64,000 bases of DNA from Lentibacter sp. XHP0401 (GTDB taxonomy: Bacteria > Pseudomonadota > Alphaproteobacteria > Rhodobacterales > Rhodobacteraceae), in contig NZ_JAOWLC010000002.1 in the NCBI RefSeq assembly GCF_025751535.1, forward strand, positions 124,001 to 188,000, given 5' to 3'. The stretch's first letter is position 1; every line of letters starts with the position of its first letter. The notes under the pieces were generated by a model. That model saw nothing but the letters and a program-made list of their open reading frames with translations. It had not been told where the DNA came from and did no database searches. A program made the position numbers and the translations under genes. Shown here in pieces: positions 37,386-60,170 of the stretch.

Positions 37386-38054
37386 ATGAAAGCCGCTGTG
37401 ATTGTCTTCCCTGGATCAAATTGTGATCGTGACCTTGCTGTTGCCCTGGAAAAGGCGGGGGCCGATGTGCAAATGGTTTGGCACAAAGACACCGCATTGC
37501 CCAAGGGTATTGATTTGGTGGCTGTTCCGGGCGGGTTTTCCTTTGGTGATTATCTGCGCTGCGGTGCGATTGCGGCGAACTCACCGATTTGCGGCGAGCT
37601 GAAGACCCATGTGGAGCGGGGCGGTTACGCGCTCGGAATTTGCAACGGGTTTCAGGTGCTGACAGAGACTGGGCTTTTGCCGGGCGCTTTGCGGCGCAAT
37701 GCGGGGCTGAAATATATTTGCAAGCCTATCGAGTTGTGCGTTGAGGCGACCGACACGGCTTATACCAGTGATTACACCAAAGGGCAGGTGATCACGGTGC
37801 CGATCGCACATCATGATGGCAACTACTATGTCGATGATGCCAAATTGGCCGAGCTTCAAGGGGAAGGGCGGATTGCGTTCAGCTATGTTGATAACCCTAA
37901 TGGTTCTGTCGCTGATATCGCGGGTGTTGTGAGCCGAAACCGTCGGGTACTTGGTATGATGCCCCACCCCGAGCGGATGTCGGAGGCAAGCCACGGTGGG
38001 ACCGATGGTAAGGCAATGTTTACAAGCCTCATGAGCCAAATGGCGCTTGCGTGA
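37386..38054 (+). CDS. purQ: PurQ, FGAM synthase glutaminase subunit
   Basis: Glutamine amidotransferase that supplies ammonia to PurL. IVFPGSNCDRDLAVAL at the start, nucleophile GICNGFQVLTETGLLPG, and MMPHPERM carrying the His/Glu of the triad. 222 residues. The large subunit gene purL, often next in alphaproteobacteria, is not here; dctB follows after 46 bp. Confidence 0.96.
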   Translation: MKAAVIVFPGSNCDRDLAVALEKAGADVQMVWHKDTALPKGIDLVAVPGGFSFGDYLRCGAIAANSPICGELKTHVERGGYALGICNGFQVLTETGLLPGALRRNAGLKYICKPIELCVEATDTAYTSDYTKGQVITVPIAHHDGNYYVDDAKLAELQGEGRIAFSYVDNPNGSVADIAGVVSRNRRVLGMMPHPERMSEASHGGTDGKAMFTSLMSQMALA

Positions 38055-38100: not shown

Positions 38101-39864
38101 ATGAGCCTGATTGTTGACCCTTCTGGAAAAGCACGCCCGAGCACCACTGGCTGGCGAATGCGTGCGCTTTTTGTCGGGCTTTTGCTGCTTGCTGTCGTGA
38201 CGATTGCGGTGACAAACCGATTTCTGACAGAGCGGTTTACCGAGAACACCCGTAACCGAGCCGAACTTCGCCTGACGCTCTATTCAGGCAACCTGATGTC
38301 AGAACTCAAGCGCAACTCGATTGTGCCGCAGCTTTTGAGCCGAGACCCCGCATTGATCGGGGCGCTCAACTCGAATGATTTCAGCCAGTCTACACAGAGA
38401 TTGATCTCATTTGTCGAGGAGATTGGCGCGGCCTCGCTTGTTTTGCTGGATGCCAGCGGGCGAACTGTAGCGGCTACCGACCGTGCGCGGATTGGGGAGC
38501 AGCACCGCCAGCAGAGCTATTTCATTGATACCCTGCGCTCGCCCAACACGCTTTTTGCGACAGTCCCGCGGGAAAGTGGAGGCTATCGCTTTGTGTATTC
38601 ACGGCGTGTCACAAGCCAGAGCGAGACCATCGGGATAATCCTTGTCGAGGTTGATCTGGCCAAGTTCGAGCGTGCTTGGGCGGGTATTTCGGATGCGGTT
38701 TTTGTCACGGATAGTGAGGGGACGATCGTTCTTGCGACCGAACCGCGCTGGCGTGGTCTGCAAGAAACCGAAGCACTCAGCCATGAGCCGGCAGACAGCG
38801 CTATCGAGCGGGCTATACATGCGACACAAAACTGGACCTCACTGCCGCCTGACGCCTATGTGAAGGGCGAGGCCGTGATGCGCAAGGAAATGCGCGTGCC
38901 ATTTAGGGGCTGGAAGATGGCGTCCTTTACCACTTATGCAAGTGTACGCGAGAGGGTGAATGGCGTTTTGGCGCTCGAGATCATGGTGTTTGCCATGCTC
39001 CTCTCATTTGTTTTCTATTTGCTCAGTCGCAAGTCGGCATTGCGTATGGCGCTGTTTCAACGGGAGTCGGCGGAGCTTCGCCAGTTGAATGCGCGATTGC
39101 AGCGGGAAATTGCCGAGCGGGAAAAGATGCAAGGGGCACTCAAGACCGCAGAGTTGAGCCTTGCACAAAGTTCCAAGCTTGCGGCTTTGGGCGAAATGTC
39201 CGCGGCTGTGAGTCATGAGCTGAACCAGCCTTTGGCCGCGATGAAAACCTATCTCGCAGGATCACGGCTTTTGCTGCAACGCAATCGCCCTGATGAGGCT
39301 TTGTCATCGTTTCACCGCATTGATGATTTGATTGAGCGGATGGGGGCTATTACGAAGCAACTCAAAAGCTATGCGCGTAAGGGACAGGATGAGCTAAGCC
39401 CTATAAATATGGGTGATGCGTTGACCTCTGCTTTATCGATGATGGAGCCGCAGCTAAAGCTGAGGCATGTCAAAATCGACCGTATTTTACCGAAATGGCC
39501 TGTAATGGTCATGGGGGACCGGGTGCGCATCGAGCAGGTGATGGTCAATCTCATCCGTAACGCTCTGGACGCGACCAAGCTGGTGCGTGAGCCCGAGATC
39601 GAACTTATCCTGGCGGCAGGTGAAACGGCCACTCTTGCAGTGCGCGACAATGGCCCTGGCATTGAAGATCTCGATTCACTTTTCGAGCCGTTTTACACTA
39701 CAAAACAGCCTGGAGAAGGTGTTGGGCTTGGGCTTGCCATTTCATCAGGGATCGTAAACGACCTAGGGGGACGCCTGACCGCACGCAATTCGATAGCGGG
39801 GGGGGCTGTTTTTGAAATGCAACTACCTATCTTGGAAGACAGCAGCTCTGAAGCTGCCGAGTGA
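38101..39864 (+). CDS. dctB: DctB-like sensor histidine kinase
   Basis: Membrane sensor kinase, 587 residues. TM1 is at about 19-38; a periplasmic double-PAS (PDC) sensor region runs to about 285; TM2 is about 288-310. A coiled coil (ELRQLNARLQREIAEREKM) precedes the kinase. The H-box is AAVSHELNQPLAAMKTYLAG, the N-box is NLIRNALDAT, and DNGPGIEDL and GVGLGLAISSGI complete it. This is the DctB type that senses C4-dicarboxylates, but no dctPQM transport genes are in the window, so the ligand is not certain. dctD follows after 18 bp. Confidence 0.87.
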   Translation: MSLIVDPSGKARPSTTGWRMRALFVGLLLLAVVTIAVTNRFLTERFTENTRNRAELRLTLYSGNLMSELKRNSIVPQLLSRDPALIGALNSNDFSQSTQRLISFVEEIGAASLVLLDASGRTVAATDRARIGEQHRQQSYFIDTLRSPNTLFATVPRESGGYRFVYSRRVTSQSETIGIILVEVDLAKFERAWAGISDAVFVTDSEGTIVLATEPRWRGLQETEALSHEPADSAIERAIHATQNWTSLPPDAYVKGEAVMRKEMRVPFRGWKMASFTTYASVRERVNGVLALEIMVFAMLLSFVFYLLSRKSALRMALFQRESAELRQLNARLQREIAEREKMQGALKTAELSLAQSSKLAALGEMSAAVSHELNQPLAAMKTYLAGSRLLLQRNRPDEALSSFHRIDDLIERMGAITKQLKSYARKGQDELSPINMGDALTSALSMMEPQLKLRHVKIDRILPKWPVMVMGDRVRIEQVMVNLIRNALDATKLVREPEIELILAAGETATLAVRDNGPGIEDLDSLFEPFYTTKQPGEGVGLGLAISSGIVNDLGGRLTARNSIAGGAVFEMQLPILEDSSSEAAE

Positions 39865-39882: not shown

Positions 39883-41220
39883 ATGGCCAAAGCTATGAAA
39901 ATTGCGATTGTGGACGACGAGCAGGACATGCGCCAGTCCATCAGCCAGTGGCTCGCGCTTTCGGGTTATGACACACAGACTTTTCCAAGTGCGGAAGAGG
40001 CGCTGAAAGAGCTTGGCGCAGATTATCCGGGCATTGTGATTTCTGATATCAAGATGCCCGGCATGGACGGTATGCAATTTCTCAAGAAGCTGATGGGTGC
40101 TGACAGCGCTTTGCCTGTAATCATGATTACCGGACATGGCGATGTGCCTATGGCAGTTGAGGCGATGCGGGTTGGCGCATATGATTTCCTTGAAAAGCCC
40201 TTCAACCCTGACCGTATGACAGAGTTGGCAAAGAAAGCAGCCAATGCACGCCGTCTGACGCTTGATAACCGTGCTTTGCGCCGCGAGCTCTCCGAGGGCG
40301 GACAGCTTATGAAAAAACTCATCGGCGCGAGCCCGGTGATGGAGCGGTTGAAGGAAGATATTCTCGACCTTGGCCAAGCCGACGGACACGTGCTGATTGA
40401 TGGTGAAACAGGCACAGGCAAAACACTTGTTGCGCATGCTTTGCATGCTGTGGGCGCGCGAGCGGGCAAGAAGTTCGTTTTGGTGAGCTGTTCGGCGTTG
40501 GAGGAAGACGCGTTGACCAAGCGGCTTTTCGGGCCGATGCTACCTGAGGACACACGCCTGCCCGCCGTGGAAGAGGCGCGTGGCGGCACGCTTGTTTTGG
40601 AAGACATCGAGACACTACCTGATGCAGTGCAGGCAAGGCTTTTGAGTTTTATGAACGATGAGGGCACACCGCCCGAAACGCGGATTGTGGCGATATCAAA
40701 CTTGCAGGAGCAGGATCGCACCGTTGAAGACGCGTTGCGCAATGATCTGTTTTACCGCCTTGCCGCTCTGCGCATCACTGTGCCGCCGCTACGCCAGCGC
40801 GGTGAGGATATCCTGACGCTGTTTACCCGTTTGTCTGATGAATTTGCTGATGAATATGGCTGCGATGCGCCAAAGGTGAGTGCGCAGGAGGCGGCGCAAC
40901 TTTTGCAGGCGCCTTGGCCTGGAAACGTGCGCCAGTTGATCAACACTGCGGAGCGGGCTGTTTTGCAGTCACGTCGAGGCTCGGGTTCCATCACTTCGCT
41001 TTTGATGAGCGACCATGACGAGATGCAGCCTGTGATGACCACAGAAGGCAAGCCATTGAAAGAGTATGTCGAAGCCTTTGAGAGAATGCTCATCGACAAT
41101 ACGATGCGTCGCCATAAGGGCTCTATTGCCGCAGTGATGGATGAGCTCTGTTTGCCGCGCCGCACTCTCAACGAGAAGATGGCCAAGTATGCCTTGCAGC
41201 GATCCGACTATCTGAACTGA
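39883..41220 (+). CDS. dctD: DctD-like response regulator with AAA+ domain lacking GAFTGA
   Basis: Receiver domain (about 1-120; phospho-acceptor Asp in IVISDIKMPGMDG), AAA+ domain (about 145-370) and Fis-type helix-turn-helix (SIAAVMDELCLPRRTLNEKM). Walker A is intact (GETGTGKT), and the arginine-finger region NDLFYRLAALRITVPPLRQR is present. The sigma-54-contacting GAFTGA loop is absent: the expected place (about residues 215-236) reads LFGPMLPEDTRLPAVEEARG. Walker B is altered to TLVLEDIE. It may act without sigma-54. 445 residues, paired with dctB. Confidence 0.85.
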   Translation: MAKAMKIAIVDDEQDMRQSISQWLALSGYDTQTFPSAEEALKELGADYPGIVISDIKMPGMDGMQFLKKLMGADSALPVIMITGHGDVPMAVEAMRVGAYDFLEKPFNPDRMTELAKKAANARRLTLDNRALRRELSEGGQLMKKLIGASPVMERLKEDILDLGQADGHVLIDGETGTGKTLVAHALHAVGARAGKKFVLVSCSALEEDALTKRLFGPMLPEDTRLPAVEEARGGTLVLEDIETLPDAVQARLLSFMNDEGTPPETRIVAISNLQEQDRTVEDALRNDLFYRLAALRITVPPLRQRGEDILTLFTRLSDEFADEYGCDAPKVSAQEAAQLLQAPWPGNVRQLINTAERAVLQSRRGSGSITSLLMSDHDEMQPVMTTEGKPLKEYVEAFERMLIDNTMRRHKGSIAAVMDELCLPRRTLNEKMAKYALQRSDYLN

Positions 41221-41642
41221 GTAGGTGTTGGGCCTGTCTGTAAAAGTGATGCGGTCACGGTGCGAAGGCATATTAGCCATTGTATTTTGACGCGGCCTGA
41301 CATTATGTAGAAAGAGCAGAGTTGCGAGATTTCGCACTTTGAGGAGTTTATCTGCTTCGGATACTGCGCACTGCGCGATCCCCTGCAGGATGAATTGGCC
41401 CAGAAATGTGGCCGAACGGACCGGCAAGCCTTTGTGCTTGCCAATAAATGGGCGCTTTTGCCTGCATATGCAGAGAAGTGTCGGAGAAGAAACGCGATGA
41501 AGCGCGCGGTATATTCGAGTTCGAGAGCAGAGGGCGCATGCGCCCCTTTCGAGCACGCGCCTGACATTGCCCGAAATAGACACGTTTTGATTTCTGCTGT
41601 GCCCTTTGGGTTATGCAGGGATTTTGCGTGCAAATGGACTTC
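41221..41642 (+). other. Long structured leader/intergenic region before rne
   Basis: 422 bp without a convincing gene. It holds three self-complementary elements: a hairpin with 7-bp stem (GGCAAGC/GCTTGCC, 41423-41442), the palindrome CTGCATATGCAG (41462-41473) and GGGCGCATGCGCCC (41532-41545). RNase E in E. coli autoregulates by cutting its own structured 5' UTR; a similar function here is inference. ORFs in this stretch have no ribosome sites and look random. Confidence 0.55.
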
Positions 41643-44387
41643 ATGGCTAAGAAAATGCTTATCGACGCCACCCACGCAGAGGAAACTCGCGTTGTTGTGG
41701 TTGATGGAAACAAAGTTGAGGAATTTGACTTTGAAACCGAGAACCGCCGGCAGCTTGCTGGCAACATCTATCTCGCAAAGATAACACGGGTCGAACCGTC
41801 GCTTCAGGCGGCTTTCGTTGACTATGGTGGCAACCGCCATGGTTTCCTCGCGTTCAACGAGATTCACCCCGATTACTATCAGATACCGGTCGCGGACCGT
41901 GAAGCGCTGATGGAAGAAGAGCGCGCCTATGTGGAAGCACAGCGCGCGCGTGACGAGGACGAAGAAGACAAGCCTAAGCGCCGCCGTTCTTCGCGGTCCA
42001 AAGCGTCGCGTGCGAAAACCGATGACGCGGTGGAGACGCGTGAAGTCGCGGCTGAGGTTGACGGCGATGTTTCCGGTATGGAGACCATCGACTTTGAAGA
42101 AGGGGACGACACCGCTGAAGGCTTGTCGCCCATGGAGCTTGTAGGCGACACGCCTGTGGAAGAGCCAGATGATGCGGTTGAAGCTGAATCCGGTGATGAT
42201 GCTTCAGAAGAAGTCAGCGAAGAGTCTGGTGAGCTGTCCGATGACGAAGATGGCGCCCCCAAGGGCCGCAGCAATCGTGGTAAGAAAGACGCCAGTGCCA
42301 AAGACGAGACCATTGAGAGTGTAGCTGAGGATGACGAGGAGGAGGATATTCGCCCCCCTCGCAAGCCACGCCCGCGTCGCTACAAGATTCAGGAAGTGGT
42401 TAAAGTGCGCCAGATCATGCTGGTGCAGGTTGTTAAAGAAGAGCGCGGCAACAAGGGAGCGGCCCTTACAACTTACCTGAGTTTGGCTGGTCGCTATTGC
42501 GTACTTATGCCAAACACAGCGCGTGGCGGCGGTATTTCCCGCAAAATTACCAATCCTGCGGACCGGAAAAAGCTCAAAGAAATTGCGCATGAAATCGAAG
42601 TGCCTAAGGGTGCTGGACTGATTGTGCGCACGGCAGGCGCAAAACGCACCAAGACCGAGATAAAGCGCGACTATGAGTATTTGCAGCGTTTGTGGGAGCA
42701 GATCCGCGAACTGACGCTGAAATCAACGGCACCTTCAAAGATCTATGAAGAGGGTGATCTTATCAAGCGTTCGATCCGCGATCTTTACAGCCGCGAGATT
42801 GATGAAGTGTTGGTAGAAGGCGAGCGCGGTTACCGCATCGCTAAAGATTTCATGAAAATGATCATGCCGTCGCATTCCAAGAACGTGCAGCGTTATGAGG
42901 ACAGCTTGCCGCTATTTGCACGCTATCAGGTTGAGAGCTATCTGTCGGGGATGTTTAACCCGACTGTGCAGCTTAAATCGGGTGGTTACATTGTCTTTGG
43001 TGTGACTGAAGCTCTGGTGGCTGTTGATGTGAACTCGGGGCGCGCGACGAAAGAAAGCAGCATCGAGGAAACAGCACTCAAGACCAACCTTGAAGCCGCT
43101 GAAGAAGTTGCACGCCAGTTGCGCCTGCGAGATCTGGCTGGCTTGATTGTGATCGACTTTATCGACATGGACGAACGCCGCAACAATGCTGCTGTTGAAA
43201 AACGCATGAAGGACAAGCTCAAGTCTGACCGCGCGCGCATTCAGGTGGGTCGGATCTCGGGTTTTGGCCTGATGGAAATGTCCCGCCAGCGCTTGCGCCC
43301 GGGTATGCTTGAAGCGACGACCCAGCCTTGCCCAAGCTGTCATGGCACAGGGCTTATCCGCTCGGATGATAACCTTGCGCTGAGCGTTTTGCGCCAGATC
43401 GAGGAAGAGGGCACGCGCCGCCGTTCACGCGAAGTATTAGTGACTTGCCCTGTAGGGATTGCCAACTTTCTGATGAACCAGAAACGCGAGCATGTGGCAC
43501 ATATCGAAGCGCGCTACGGTATGTCGGTTCGGATTGAGGGCGACCCCAAGTTAATCAGCCCTGACTTTACGCTTGAAAAATTCAAGACTGCGACCCGCAA
43601 TGTAAAGGAAATGCCCTCGACTGCAATTTCGGCTTCGGCTGCTTTGATGGATGACATCGACAGTGAAGTGACGGATGAGATTGAGGAAAATACTTCTGTT
43701 GAGGTTGCTGAACGTGTTGAAGAGAACGGCGAGGGTAAGCCCAAGAAGCGCCGTCGCCGTCGTCCACGCCGCCGCGGTAAAGGCAATGGTGGGGAAAACG
43801 GTGCTGAAAACGATTCTGAAAACGGGGGCGACAGCCGTGGAACTGACGGCCATGACGCGCAAACGGATAAGCCTGTTGATGCCGACAAGCCTAATGAGAC
43901 ACCTCAAGATGCACCCGCGAAGGCTGTTTCTGTAGAGGTTTCGGAAACCGTTGAGGATGCGCCGAAGAAAAAGACGGTTAGCCGTTCGCGCAAGAAGAAA
44001 ACCGATACGGATGAGCCGGTAAACTCACAAGAGGCTGCCTCGGCAGAGATCCCGGCCGCTGTGGATGATGGCGCACCGAAGAAAGCCACGCGCAAGCCCT
44101 CAACCCGTGCCAAGAAACCTAAGGCGGATGAGGTGGAAGCCTCTGACGGTGCTCAAGCACCAGCGGAAGAAAAGACGGCCAAGCCGAAGACAACGCGTTC
44201 GCGCGCAAAGAAGAAGGTTGACGAGCCAGAGGTGGAAGCACCGGCGACAGTGGAACCTGCGACCAAAGCAGAACCAGCTCCAAAGCCCGCGCCAAAGCCA
44301 AAAGCGGCACCTGAGCCAGCGCCCGAGGTGAAGGATGACGCACCACCCAAGCCAAAGAAAAAGGGCTGGTGGTCACTAGGTGGCTAA
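41643..44387 (+). CDS. rne: Ribonuclease E (alphaproteobacterial type)
   Basis: Endoribonuclease of the RNA degradosome, 914 residues. The N-terminus MAKKMLIDATHAEETRVVVV starts the RNase H-like and S1 region. The S1 domain is interrupted by an acidic, disordered insert (about residues 95-245). Catalytic Asp segments are VAVDVNSGRAT (about 458) and LIVIDFIDMDERRNN (about 500). The zinc-link is PCPSCHGTG (about 561). The C-terminal third is low-complexity, with Arg-rich KKRRRRRPRRRGKG, KA/EP repeats and a terminal KKKGWWSLGG. Start at 41643; an earlier ATG at 41613 is less likely. Confidence 0.95.
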   Translation: MAKKMLIDATHAEETRVVVVDGNKVEEFDFETENRRQLAGNIYLAKITRVEPSLQAAFVDYGGNRHGFLAFNEIHPDYYQIPVADREALMEEERAYVEAQRARDEDEEDKPKRRRSSRSKASRAKTDDAVETREVAAEVDGDVSGMETIDFEEGDDTAEGLSPMELVGDTPVEEPDDAVEAESGDDASEEVSEESGELSDDEDGAPKGRSNRGKKDASAKDETIESVAEDDEEEDIRPPRKPRPRRYKIQEVVKVRQIMLVQVVKEERGNKGAALTTYLSLAGRYCVLMPNTARGGGISRKITNPADRKKLKEIAHEIEVPKGAGLIVRTAGAKRTKTEIKRDYEYLQRLWEQIRELTLKSTAPSKIYEEGDLIKRSIRDLYSREIDEVLVEGERGYRIAKDFMKMIMPSHSKNVQRYEDSLPLFARYQVESYLSGMFNPTVQLKSGGYIVFGVTEALVAVDVNSGRATKESSIEETALKTNLEAAEEVARQLRLRDLAGLIVIDFIDMDERRNNAAVEKRMKDKLKSDRARIQVGRISGFGLMEMSRQRLRPGMLEATTQPCPSCHGTGLIRSDDNLALSVLRQIEEEGTRRRSREVLVTCPVGIANFLMNQKREHVAHIEARYGMSVRIEGDPKLISPDFTLEKFKTATRNVKEMPSTAISASAALMDDIDSEVTDEIEENTSVEVAERVEENGEGKPKKRRRRRPRRRGKGNGGENGAENDSENGGDSRGTDGHDAQTDKPVDADKPNETPQDAPAKAVSVEVSETVEDAPKKKTVSRSRKKKTDTDEPVNSQEAASAEIPAAVDDGAPKKATRKPSTRAKKPKADEVEASDGAQAPAEEKTAKPKTTRSRAKKKVDEPEVEAPATVEPATKAEPAPKPAPKPKAAPEPAPEVKDDAPPKPKKKGWWSLGG

Positions 44388-54356: not shown

Positions 54357-54989
54357 ATGGCTTTAGATGGTGAAATTGGCACGATCCCTTGGGCGATCAA
54401 GGGCGAACTTATTCTCAACTGCAACTGCACTGTGTTTTGCCCTTGTGTGGTCAGCCTTGGGCAGCATCCGCCCACGGAAGGCCACTGTCAGGCTTGGTCC
54501 GGCGTGCGGATTGATGAGGGCGACTACGGTGGTGTCAGCCTTTCGGGGCTGAATGTTGGCCTTTTTCTTGAAATACCAGGTAACATGGGCCGGGGAAACT
54601 GGAAAGCGGCGGCATACATCGATGATCGGGCCACGGAGGAGCAATATGACGCGCTTGTGGCAATTTTTTCAGGGGCGGCAAGAGGCACAACGGGTTTGTT
54701 TGGTTTGCTGGTCAGTGAGTTTCTCGGGGCAGAGCGTGCGCCGATTACTTTTGAGACGGTGGGCAAGGAGCGCCGCCTCATGGTTGGCAAAAAGATCAAA
54801 GGCGCAGTTGTGCCTGTCGAGGGCAAGGATGGTAAAGACGTGGTTGTGACCAACACGGAATACTGGATGGGGCCTGACATTACAGTTGCCAAGGCGACAC
54901 AAGGGCGCGTTCGGGCTTTTGGCCGTGTCTGGGATTTTGACGGCCGCAGTGCTGAAATTTGCCAGATCGATTGGCACGGCCCTCGCTGA
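54357..54989 (+). CDS. DUF1326 domain protein
   Basis: 210 residues, no signal peptide. The Cys-rich N-terminus GELILNCNCTVFCPCVVSL (about 16-34) looks like a soft-metal site; a C-terminal beta-rich domain ends CQIDWHGPR. A GGAGGAGG ribosome site precedes the ATG. Its stop overlaps the dmdA start (TGATG), so its translation is tied to DMSP demethylase. Function unknown; a metal or thiol role is inferred from the Cys residues only. Confidence 0.82.
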   Translation: MALDGEIGTIPWAIKGELILNCNCTVFCPCVVSLGQHPPTEGHCQAWSGVRIDEGDYGGVSLSGLNVGLFLEIPGNMGRGNWKAAAYIDDRATEEQYDALVAIFSGAARGTTGLFGLLVSEFLGAERAPITFETVGKERRLMVGKKIKGAVVPVEGKDGKDVVVTNTEYWMGPDITVAKATQGRVRAFGRVWDFDGRSAEICQIDWHGPR

Positions 54990-56092
54990 TGGTGCAGATA
55001 GCGTTGTCGCGCCGCTTGCGCCGCACTCCCTTTAGTGAAGGAGTGGAGGCCGCAGGCGTGAAGGGCTACACGGTCTATAACCGGATGCTCTTGCCGACTG
55101 TTTTTCGCACAGTTCAAGAAGATTACCGCCACCTTAAGGAGGCGGTTCAGCTTTGGGATGTCTCTTGCGAGCGGCAGGTTGAGTTGCGCGGCTCCGATGC
55201 CACACGTCTTATGCAAATGCTGACCCCGCGCGACTTGCGCCCGATGCAGGCAGGTCAGTGTTACTATGTGCCCATTGTGGACGAAACAGGTGGGATGCTG
55301 AATGATCCAGTAGCTGTAAAACTCGCAGATGATCGTTGGTGGGTGTCTATTGCCGACAGTGATTTGCTGTTGTGGATTAAGGGGATCGCTTACGGTTATC
55401 GGCTTGATGTACTGGTGGATGAACCTGACGTCAGTCCGCTGGGTGTTCAAGGTCCACACGCCGATGATGTGATGGCAGATGTCTTCGGAGATGCGGTGCG
55501 CGACATTCGCTTCTTCCGCTTCGCTATGCTCGAATTTCAGGGACGCAAACTGGCTGTAGCGCGCTCGGGATATTCCAAGCAAGGTGGTTTTGAAATATAT
55601 GTTGAAGGCAGCGATATTGGAATGCCTCTCTGGAACGCGCTGATGGAAGCAGGCAAAAAATATGATATTCATGCAGGCTGCCCCAACCTAATCGAGCGCA
55701 TCGAGGGTGGCTTACTGAGCTATGGTAACGACATGACGGACGATAACACACCTCATGAATGTGGGCTCGGCAAGTTCTGCAATACGCATTCGGCGATTGG
55801 CTGTGTCGGCCGCGATGCTTTGCTGCGGGTGGCTCAAGAGGGGCCTGTTCGGCAAATCCGTGCTGTAGAAATCCATGGTGATGCTGTGCCACCTTGCGAT
55901 CGGCTTTGGCCTGTTGTGGTCGGCGAAACACAAGTCGGAAATATCAGCAGTGCGGCCTACTCGCCCGATTTTACGACAAATGTTGCGATTGGAATGATCC
56001 GTATGACACATTGGGATGAAGGCAGTGAAGTCGACATAATAACTCCTGCGGGGGTGCATGCTGCGACTGTGAAAGAAACATTCTGGATTTGA
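54989..56092 (+). CDS. dmdA: DmdA, dimethylsulfoniopropionate demethylase
   Basis: THF-dependent enzyme of the GcvT fold that moves a methyl from DMSP to THF, giving methylmercaptopropionate and methyl-THF. It begins with SRRLRRTPFSEGVEAAGVKG and contains YNRMLLPTVF, DDRWWVSIADSDLLL, and GCPNLIERIEGGLLSYGNDM, as in roseobacter DmdA rather than glycine-cleavage T protein. 367 residues. Start at 54989 overlaps the DUF1326 stop. acuI follows after 17 bp, the order known from Ruegeria. Confidence 0.88.
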   Translation: MVQIALSRRLRRTPFSEGVEAAGVKGYTVYNRMLLPTVFRTVQEDYRHLKEAVQLWDVSCERQVELRGSDATRLMQMLTPRDLRPMQAGQCYYVPIVDETGGMLNDPVAVKLADDRWWVSIADSDLLLWIKGIAYGYRLDVLVDEPDVSPLGVQGPHADDVMADVFGDAVRDIRFFRFAMLEFQGRKLAVARSGYSKQGGFEIYVEGSDIGMPLWNALMEAGKKYDIHAGCPNLIERIEGGLLSYGNDMTDDNTPHECGLGKFCNTHSAIGCVGRDALLRVAQEGPVRQIRAVEIHGDAVPPCDRLWPVVVGETQVGNISSAAYSPDFTTNVAIGMIRMTHWDEGSEVDIITPAGVHAATVKETFWI

Positions 56093-56109
56093 AAGAAAGA
56101 GGTGACGAG

Positions 56110-57102
56110 ATGAGCGACTTCAACGCATTGGTTGTCGAGAAAGACGAAGAGACAGGCAAGACGAGTGCTATGGTCAAACAGCTTTCCGACGCGGATTTGC
56201 CTGATGGCGAAGTAACTGTAGCGGTGGAGTATTCCACGGTGAATTACAAAGACGGCCTGTGCATTGGCCCGGGCGGTGGGCTTGTGCGCAAGTATCCGCA
56301 TGTGCCTGGTATCGACTTTGCGGGCAAAGTCGAAAGCTCGTCAGATCCACGCTATAAGGCGGGAGACAAAGTTGTTCTTACAGGATGGCGCGTGGGAGAA
56401 GCCCATTGGGGCGGGTATTCGCAAAAAGCTAGCGTAAAGGCTGACTGGCTCGTGCCGCTTCCCGAGGGACTTGATACGCGCCAAGCAATGGCCGTTGGCA
56501 CGGCGGGGTTTACCGCAATGCTCGCCGTGATGGCGCTTGAAGACCATGGGATCAAATCGGGCCCGGTTCTGGTGACAGGTGCGGCGGGCGGTGTCGGATC
56601 AGTTGCCACGGCTATACTGGCGAACCTTGGCCATGAGGTTGCCGCTGTGACGGGGCGGCCCGAGACGGAGGACTATCTGAAAAGCCTTGGAGCAACCCAG
56701 ATTGTAGCTCGTGAAGAGATTAACGAAACGGTCAAGCGCCCACTGGAAGGCGAAACATGGGGTGGATGTGTGGATGCTGTCGGCGGTGAAATGCTGGCGC
56801 GACTGCTGGGGCAAATGCAATATGGAGCCTCTGTTGCGGCAGTTGGCCTTGCAGGTGGAGCTGGCTTGCCCGCCACTGTCATTCCATTTCTTTTGCGCGG
56901 CGTGAACCTTTTGGGCATCGATAGCGTGATGCAGCCCTATGATAACCGTCTGCGGGCTTGGGAACGTATTGCCCGTGATCTGCCCATGACGAAACTGGAA
57001 GCGATGGTGCAGCCTGCAAGCCTGAGCGATTTGCCCGAGTTGGGAAGAGATATCCTCAAGGGACAGGTCAAGGGCCGTGTCGTAGTTGACGTGAACGCTT
57101 GA
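56110..57102 (+). CDS. acuI: AcuI, acryloyl-CoA reductase (NADPH)
   Basis: Medium-chain dehydrogenase/reductase (YhdH type), 330 residues. VEYSTVNYKDGLCIGPGGG near the start, then VLTGWRVGEAHWGGYSQKA and the cofactor loop VTGAAGGVGSVATAILA. It removes toxic acryloyl-CoA formed when DMSP is cleaved to acrylate. Start at 56110 with AGAGGTG upstream. Last gene of the operon; a strong terminator follows. Confidence 0.9.
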   Translation: MSDFNALVVEKDEETGKTSAMVKQLSDADLPDGEVTVAVEYSTVNYKDGLCIGPGGGLVRKYPHVPGIDFAGKVESSSDPRYKAGDKVVLTGWRVGEAHWGGYSQKASVKADWLVPLPEGLDTRQAMAVGTAGFTAMLAVMALEDHGIKSGPVLVTGAAGGVGSVATAILANLGHEVAAVTGRPETEDYLKSLGATQIVAREEINETVKRPLEGETWGGCVDAVGGEMLARLLGQMQYGASVAAVGLAGGAGLPATVIPFLLRGVNLLGIDSVMQPYDNRLRAWERIARDLPMTKLEAMVQPASLSDLPELGRDILKGQVKGRVVVDVNA

Positions 57103-58532: not shown

Positions 58533-60170
58533 ATGAGTGAAGAAACACCAGACACAGGAATACCGCAGCCCGAGGGCAATGCGGACTTAATTGATACAGA
58601 CTACGAGATTGGCCAGGATAATATCGAGACCCAGATCGGGCCTTTTGGCTTGGATATTCACAATCCGGTATTCCTGATTTCGGGAATGGCGATTGTGGCG
58701 TTTGTGTTTTACGCGTTGGCCCTGCCTGAACAATCGGGAGAGCTTTTCAGCTGGTTGTTTTCCAGTGTGACCAAGGGGTTTGACTGGTTCTTTATTGGCT
58801 CGGCTAACATTTTTGTTCTTTTCTGTCTGTTACTCATCGTTCTGCCCGTCGGCTCAGTGCGTCTTGGTGGTTCGGAGGCGACTCCAGATTATGGCTATAT
58901 CGGCTGGTTTGCGATGCTGTTTGCGGCGGGTATGGGGATTGGCCTCATGTTTTATGGCGTATCAGAGCCGATGAGCCACTTTGCCTCCTCTTTGGGAGGG
59001 ACAGCTTCAGAGGGAGGTGTGCGCACGGACTGGGCACCCCTTGGCGGTGCGGCAGGCGATAATGAAGCCGCGACAAGGCTCGCATTTGCCGCAACGATTT
59101 ATCATTGGGGTCTGCACCCATGGGCAATCTACGCGGTTGTGGCGCTCGCACTGGCGCTCTTCAGTTACAACAAGGGTTTACCACTCACCATTCGCTCGGC
59201 TTTTTATCCGATCCTGGGCGAGCGCATTTGGGGGTGGCCGGGGCACATCATTGATATTCTTGCCGTATTCGCGACCCTCTTTGGCCTTGCTACCTCACTT
59301 GGCTTTGGCGCGACACAAGCCAACGCAGGGCTAAACGAACTTTTCGGCGTTCCCATCGGTGCAACAACAGAAGTCATTCTGATTACGTTGATCACGGCCG
59401 TGGCACTGATTTCTGTTATACGTGGCCTTGACGGTGGCGTTAAAGTATTGTCCGAAATCAACATGGGATTGGCTTTCTTGCTCTTGATTTTCGTGCTGAT
59501 TGCGGGCCCTACAGCGGCAATTCTGACAGGTTTTGTTGACTATCTGGGCGCCTATTTGCAGTATCTGCCAGCGCTTTCAAACCCGGTCGGCCGTGAAGAT
59601 GTCAATTTCAGTCAAGGTTGGACATCCTTCTATTGGGCGTGGTGGATCAGTTGGTCACCTTTTGTCGGCATGTTTATCGCACGTGTAAGCCGTGGGCGGA
59701 CAGTACGTGAATTTATCATTTGCGTTCTGCTGATCCCAAGTCTTGTTTGTGTGCTCTGGATGAGCGTGTTTGGTGGCGTTGCTATTCAACAGGTTGTGCA
59801 AGACGGCTACACAGCGGCACAGAATGCTCCTTTGGAACTCAAGCTTTTCAAGATGCTGGATGCACTTCCGCTGACCCAAATCACGAGCTTGATCGGGATT
59901 GTGCTTGTGATTGTATTCTTTGTCACCTCATCTGATTCAGGCTCTTTGGTGATTGATACGATCACGGCGGGCGGCAAAGTTGATGCTCCGGTTCCGCAGC
60001 GTGTTTTCTGGTGTATCTTTGAGGGTGCGGTTGCGATCGTGCTTTTGCTATCGGTGGGTGGTTTGCAATCACTTCAGTCGATGGTGATCTCTACAGGTCT
60101 GCCCTTTACAGTAGTTTTGCTAATCATGTGCTGGGCTATCTTTAAGGGACTTCTGGCCGAAAAAAGCTAG
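58533..60170 (+). CDS. BCCT family transporter (betaine/carnitine/choline/DMSP)
   Basis: Secondary carrier with twelve membrane spans, 545 residues. Family marks: AAGMGIGLMFYGVSEPMSHF, AIYHWGLHPWAIYAVV-like HWGLHPW, and WTSFYWAWWISWSPFVGMFI with substrate-binding Trp residues, then ARVSRGRTVREF. AGGAGGG precedes the ATG. Roseobacter BCCT carriers import DMSP or glycine betaine; the nearby dmdA supports DMSP, but the substrate is not proven by sequence. The acidic N-terminal tail (about 50 residues) may be regulatory. Confidence 0.91.
   Translation: MSEETPDTGIPQPEGNADLIDTDYEIGQDNIETQIGPFGLDIHNPVFLISGMAIVAFVFYALALPEQSGELFSWLFSSVTKGFDWFFIGSANIFVLFCLLLIVLPVGSVRLGGSEATPDYGYIGWFAMLFAAGMGIGLMFYGVSEPMSHFASSLGGTASEGGVRTDWAPLGGAAGDNEAATRLAFAATIYHWGLHPWAIYAVVALALALFSYNKGLPLTIRSAFYPILGERIWGWPGHIIDILAVFATLFGLATSLGFGATQANAGLNELFGVPIGATTEVILITLITAVALISVIRGLDGGVKVLSEINMGLAFLLLIFVLIAGPTAAILTGFVDYLGAYLQYLPALSNPVGREDVNFSQGWTSFYWAWWISWSPFVGMFIARVSRGRTVREFIICVLLIPSLVCVLWMSVFGGVAIQQVVQDGYTAAQNAPLELKLFKMLDALPLTQITSLIGIVLVIVFFVTSSDSGSLVIDTITAGGKVDAPVPQRVFWCIFEGAVAIVLLLSVGGLQSLQSMVISTGLPFTVVLLIMCWAIFKGLLAEKS

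Follow-up and report, generated by a model that had tools for sequence, protein, structure and literature searches.

Genomic organization of the D1 locus

The window analysed here, a 64,000-nucleotide stretch of the Lentibacter sp. XHP0401 genome, encodes on its plus strand a DctD-like response regulator of 445 amino acids, here named D1, whose open reading frame extends exactly from 39883 to 41220. Pfam searches identify Response_reg (PF00072, residues 7–115), Sigma54_activat (PF00158, residues 146–298), AAA_lid_14 (PF25601, residues 304–366) and HTH_8 (PF02954, residues 396–436), so that a sigma-54-interaction-type AAA+ domain is accompanied by a receiver and a Fis-type helix-turn-helix (HTH) domain. 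Together with an intact Walker A motif (GETGTGKT, 40402–40425, +), this is the architecture that the initial annotation had described. Among single-domain solved structures, the receiver nearest to that of D1 (39898–40227, +) is the one of Sinorhizobium meliloti DctD (E 2.7e-42).

A DctB-like sensor kinase of 587 amino acids with dCache, HisKA and HATPase_c domains, identified as an open reading frame and by Pfam, is encoded upstream of D1 at 38101–39864 (+), and purQ (37386–38054, +) lies directly upstream of dctB, separated from it by 46 bp. The downstream neighbour is rne, the gene for RNase E (41613–44387, +), which is conserved in most of the family, as is the gene order purC-purQ-dctB-dctD-rne-ccdA. 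In the deeper D1 members the pur-dctBD part of this arrangement remains, and most of these members showed no adjacent rne. The gap between purQ and dctB has a median of 46 nt and is 100 nt or shorter in 45 of 49 loci, suggesting that dctBD may be co-transcribed with purQ. A search for conserved dyads that might serve in autoregulation, upstream of dctB and in the dctD-rne gap, gave no clear candidate, the top ones being shared by no more than 7 of 38 and 9 of 98 loci, respectively. Elsewhere in the window, the segments 54959–57102 and 58533–60170 contain genes resembling those for a DMSP demethylase (dmdA), an acrylyl-CoA reductase (acuI) and a BCCT transporter.

Loss of the sigma-54 contact loops and conservation of the ATP-binding site

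The GAFTGA motif in loop L1 of bacterial enhancer-binding proteins (bEBPs) contacts sigma-54, and in canonical activators L1 and L2 together engage sigma-54 and the promoter. The residues of D1 from LFG to EEARGGTL are LFGPMLPEDTRLPAVEEARGGTL, and alignment with orthologues places the truncated L1 loop (LFGPMLPEDTRLPAVEEA), from which GAFTGA has been deleted, at 40525–40578 (+). The absence of GAFTGA at this place had been noticed initially in this one protein, and an alignment across Rhodobacteraceae had been proposed to find out whether it is clade-wide. It is: GAFTGA is missing in all 96 full-length D1 orthologues that were compared in the family, all of which have a short L1 and a short L2. 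The L1 segment has a median length of 22 residues in these orthologues and 28 residues in canonical proteins. The L2 loop, which precedes sensor I (40645–40683, +), is also truncated, its segment being 22 residues long in the orthologues as against 31 residues in 19 canonical DctD-like proteins. The shortening of L2, the residue that follows the Walker A lysine and the missing rpoN gene of the host are features that had not been recognized initially.

The ATP-binding site combines altered and invariant residues. Walker B of D1 reads LEDIE, with Glu-240 and Asp-241 (40600–40605, +) where the canonical motif has Asp-Glu, in agreement with the EDIE reported initially in place of DEIE. The first of these two positions is Glu in 96 of 96 orthologues (canonical Asp), and the second, canonically Glu, is Asp in 86, Asn in 4, Gly in 3 and His in 2; across the 78 named genomes that could be parsed, the pair is Glu-Asp in 77 and Glu-Gly in one. 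The Walker A lysine (Lys-180) is kept throughout the 96 and is followed by Thr or Ser where canonical proteins have Glu. Both arginine fingers, the sensor II arginine and five receiver residues (Asp-11, Asp-12, the phospho-acceptor Asp-55, Thr-83 and Lys-105) are likewise invariant, and the Asn position of the Glu switch is mostly Ser (n = 96). The labels Glu switch, arginine fingers and L2 follow PspF and NtrC and the alignment. The invariance of the Walker A lysine, the arginine fingers and the arginine of sensor II supports the earlier proposal that ATP binding has been kept, as far as residues can predict it.

A D1 match at E ≤ 1e-60 was obtained in 187 of 199 family genomes, most best matches being 75–93% identical and some of the weakest being paralogues; the closest named genomes by D1 identity are those of Lentibacter (95–96%). 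Mean pairwise identity is highest in the Fis-type HTH (0.87; 41056–41205, +), followed by the receiver (0.80), the AAA+ domain (0.72) and the L1 and L2 loops (0.59). Whole-gene dN/dS values against Lentibacter, Sulfitobacter and Roseovarius orthologues are 0.015–0.035, with dS near saturation. Judged from these sequence comparisons, the phosphorylation site, the ATP-binding residues, the arginine fingers and the HTH are under strong purifying selection. Since the same deletion and the same Walker B Glu recur in 96 of 96 orthologues, they are due neither to chance nor to a sequencing error, the circumstance that had been considered able to restore GAFTGA.

Two irregular members were encountered. 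In one relative D1 lies in two frames (L132, G044:C1:1372291-1373618), possibly as a frameshift or pseudogene. A Rhodobacteraceae-type D1 (88% identity) is also present on a contig assigned to a Poseidoniales archaeon (L199), which looks like contamination of a metagenome-assembled genome.

Distribution of sigma-54 in the host genome and the family

Profile searches with PF04552 and PF04963 did not find rpoN in the host assembly (3.7 Mb, 28 contigs, 100% complete): PF04552 gave a single sub-cut-off match, inside the HTH of a LacI-type regulator, and PF04963 gave nothing at E ≤ 10. Both profiles served well in the positive controls, where matches were obtained in E. coli, B. subtilis and Caulobacter. 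In a survey of 199 family genomes, one per genus as sampled and at least 90% complete, 62 have a solid rpoN match and 137 do not. The 62 include G027, whose match is fragmentary and contains a stop, and leave out G069, whose 23-bit match passes the cut-off but is short and covers the same profile stretch as the LacI-type HTH. The G027 fragment (G027:C54:1297-1632, in the genome of L025) is a frame of 118 amino acids with an internal TAG and is apparently a decaying sigma-54 gene. Within the host's own genus rpoN is patchy, being clearly positive in 2 of 7 genomes. Its presence in only some species of that genus (G532, G537) points to gain or loss over short times.

The motif follows sigma-54 closely. 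GAFTGA or GSFTGA, searched for with a DNA pattern that encodes FG[HY]..G[A/S/T]FTGA and whose reversed control gave 0 matches, occurs in 53 of the 199 genomes; all 53 belong to the 62 rpoN-positive ones, and the 137 rpoN-negative ones have no match (Fisher p 2.6e-39, kinship of the genomes ignored). The lack of a match in nine rpoN-positive genomes does not necessarily conflict with this association, because the pattern demands Gly at the first position, where an Asn variant is known, and because G027, which is among the nine, has only a broken rpoN. The survey by Francke et al. (2011) gives such an Asn variant for R. pomeroyi and P. denitrificans, with one true EBP in each (PMC3162934). Candidate -24/-12 sites (TGGCACGNNNNTTGCW) average 1.63 per genome with rpoN and 1.34 without it, with controls at 0.58 and 0.64, so that the background is high in the 199 genomes; the host genome has one site and one control match.

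GAFTGA is absent from all close D1 orthologues inspected, dozens of which come from rpoN-positive genomes, and the D1 loops do not differ consistently between rpoN-positive and rpoN-negative genera. A simple consequence of rpoN loss is thereby ruled out as the origin of the loop loss, and the patchiness of rpoN within the genus argues in the same direction. The earlier suggestion that D1 may have left sigma-54 control gains support from the lack of rpoN in the host and from an L1 deletion that is family-wide regardless of rpoN.

Ancestry of D1 and the other bEBP-type proteins

The host genome encodes four bEBP-type proteins, namely D1, a second DctD with GAFPGA, NtrX and NtrC, and an intact GAFTGA is found in none of them. 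Host NtrC has its own kinase NtrB, short L1 and L2 loops and a Walker B in which Glu replaces Asp; host NtrX retains the Asp-Glu of Walker B. The second DctBD pair (L001 / L011, G000:C22:35884-37191) adjoins a TRAP transporter that was classed as TAXI-type by eye. A third DctD-like clade, D3 (L115, L118-L123, L157, L158 and L164), also lacks GAFTGA, keeps the Walker B Asp-Glu and has members inside and outside Rhodobacteraceae.

In 337 genomes of the class, no D1 relative with more than 44% identity turned up outside the family, and the outgroup DctDs that the search returned mostly carry GAFTGA. In a quick maximum-likelihood tree with SH-aLRT, D1 and its divergent members form one clade (SH-aLRT 99), the GAFPGA type, D2, is nested among GAFTGA proteins and the motif loss of D3 is separate; the branches of NtrC and NtrX are too long to be placed. 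The deepest member of the D1 clade, L112, has lost L1 and has kept the Walker B Asp-Glu, suggesting that loop loss probably came first in the D1 lineage and the Walker B change later. The locus of L112 still has the order purC-purQ-dctB-dctD, in support of its orthology with D1. NtrC is distinct from D1 and is paired with a kinase of its own, so that its loop loss is probably independent of that in D1.

The cognate sensor and the signal

The sensor encoded next to D1 matches the sensor structures of V. cholerae and S. meliloti DctB, but its periplasmic domain (38242–38766, +) has Gln-138 and Glu-183 in place of an Arg and a Lys of other DctBs. The Arg of the FRxYF motif is present in 4 of 104 D1-linked sensors and 37 of 39 other DctBs, and the Lys of VxK in 4 of 104 and 35 of 39, respectively. 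These two basic residues of the canonical DctB pocket are presumably its dicarboxylate contacts. The D1-linked sensors have conserved residues of their own (Arg-146, Thr-150, Phe-152, Phe-164, Tyr-166, Ser-167 and Arg-168, in the numbering of the sensor in the window). The sensor of the second DctBD pair retains both the Arg and the Lys.

No C4-dicarboxylate transporter gene is adjacent to the D1 locus, and none of the 16 DctP-type TRAP matches in the host genome is assignable to D1. Since the sensor has lost the basic residues and the linkage is to purQ rather than to a transporter, the name DctD and the transporter targets first proposed for D1 appear doubtful, as does a C4-dicarboxylate role of the pair. 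A C4-dicarboxylate bound in the manner of DctB is an unlikely signal.

Comparison with known systems

The class of GAFTGA-less bEBPs is broad and also includes NtrX, HupR, TyrR and VpsR. The NtrC of Rhodobacter capsulatus had been put forward as a parallel, and aptly so, since it shares with D1 the receiver-AAA+-Fis HTH architecture, the L1 deletion and a conserved phospho-receiver; the class extends beyond NtrC, however, NtrC is a different protein that is paired with the kinase NtrB, and a role in activating sigma-70 promoters would be carried over to D1 only by analogy. The NtrC of Rhodobacterales is without the L1 loop, and that of R. capsulatus acts at sigma-70 promoters and requires ATP to be bound but not hydrolysed (PMC10274813). 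The loop-less NtrC of Caulobacter appears to need both; it acts on sigma-70-type promoters as a repressor as well as an activator (PMC10274813).

S. meliloti DctB/DctD is related to the D1 pair by its receiver, by sensor homology and by the same gene pairing. It differs in that D1 lacks GAFTGA, has Glu-Asp in Walker B and a short L2, and in that the D1-linked sensor is without the paired Arg and Lys and no transporter is adjacent. NtrX of Brucella and Rhodobacteraceae is another GAFTGA-less response-regulator bEBP, but in the host it keeps the Walker B Asp-Glu, and it has another kinase and another locus. NtrX regulates motility in Phaeobacter inhibens (PMC12363192). In Ruegeria fitness data a gene called dctD-2 adjoins a TRAP transporter (PMC10041152), a neighbour that suggests a D2 or D3 type rather than D1. 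Francke et al. (2011) list about 110 EBP homologues with minor GAFTGA deviations, among which the Thr-to-Pro change seen in the second DctD of the host is common; the accessible part describes no family-wide DctD lineage (PMC3162934). No paper on D1 in Rhodobacteraceae was found among those searched.

The AlphaFold2 model of D1 keeps the AAA+ fold (pLDDT 84.9), with an inter-domain arrangement of low confidence (pTM 0.58). The top solved full-length match to the model by VIA Z is VpsR of Vibrio cholerae (Z 28.9, rmsd 3.4 over 359 residues). VpsR is 27% identical to D1 and is not an orthologue, and its structure is titled as c-di-GMP binding. Foldseek ranks NtrX first, and the full-length NtrX structures 5m7n-p are among the best matches.

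A plausible mode of action

We consider, with a probability of about 0.68, that D1 represents an ancient lineage of DctD relatives that spans the family, works without sigma-54 and acts at sigma-70-family promoters. Its release from sigma-54 is suggested by the truncation of both sigma-54-engaging loops in a cell that has no sigma-54. Gating by phosphorylation is the best reading of the conserved receiver, and ATP binding is probably required as well. The DctB-like kinase would phosphorylate Asp-55 of D1, and phosphorylation together with ATP binding would drive oligomerisation of the AAA+ domain on DNA. D1 would then activate (or repress) promoters of sigma-70-family holoenzymes through contact or recruitment, without ATP-powered remodelling of a sigma-54 holoenzyme. 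The weak conservation of the second Walker B position (Asp, Asn, Gly or His) suggests that ATP hydrolysis may be slow or unnecessary, in line with what is reported of R. capsulatus NtrC. Against this, a Walker B of the Glu-Asp type could still hydrolyse ATP, the deepest member L112 retains Asp-Glu, and the loop-less NtrC of Caulobacter reportedly requires hydrolysis.

A fuller history of the pair is possible and is offered tentatively. DctBD1 would have ceased altogether to be a dicarboxylate system: fixed behind purQ early in the family's history, it would have altered its sensor pocket, given up sigma-54 and turned into a core regulator that answers a new signal at sigma-70 promoters by binding ATP without hydrolysing it.

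Resemblance to VpsR raises the alternative that the AAA+ domain is a structural or dimerisation scaffold only, as in VpsR or TyrR, and that D1 binds DNA and works without ATP. VpsR, a GAFTGA-less bEBP at sigma-70 promoters and the best full-length structural match by Z, reportedly does not need ATP (PMC10274813), and both Walker B and the Asn position of the Glu switch are altered in D1. That 96 of 96 orthologues retain the Walker A lysine, the two arginine fingers and the arginine of sensor II is unexpected for a pure scaffold, and we regard this alternative as unlikely. To much the same degree it is improbable that D1 is mainly a repressor or roadblock at sigma-70 promoters: Caulobacter NtrC provides a precedent for repression, but the conserved phosphorylation and ATP sites fit regulated oligomerisation either way. 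Far less credible is continued work with sigma-54 through another contact in rpoN-positive cells. The many orthologues in such genomes would allow it, but rpoN-negative genera keep the same D1 with loops that are not consistently different, both substrate loops are truncated, and GAFTGA changes mostly reduce or abolish sigma-54 activation, according to one survey (PMC3162934). That D1 is decaying or artefactual is hardly conceivable, for the split gene of G044 has no counterpart in the host genome, whereas cross-genus identity is high and synteny conserved, and sequencing error or local pseudogenization as the source of the loop loss is ruled out by the 96 orthologues and the low dN/dS.

Implications for Rhodobacteraceae

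As far as can be read from its sequence, D1 is an uncharacterised new case within an already known class, that of GAFTGA-less, sigma-54-independent bEBPs. Proteins of the D1 class are as a rule annotated as sigma-54-dependent, although sigma-54 is missing from about two thirds of the family's genera in the sample. Since loss of the contact loop is common to essentially the whole family, many such annotations are probably off, and many genes named like D1 probably work otherwise than annotated. The change in the D1-linked sensor warns in the same way against transferring the dicarboxylate annotation. Loop-less lineages in the family comprise NtrC, NtrX, D1 and another DctD-like clade, and a fifth lineage, with GAFPGA, has a damaged motif. 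Rhodobacteraceae thus offer a natural series for seeing how an AAA+ activator functions after losing its remodelling target.
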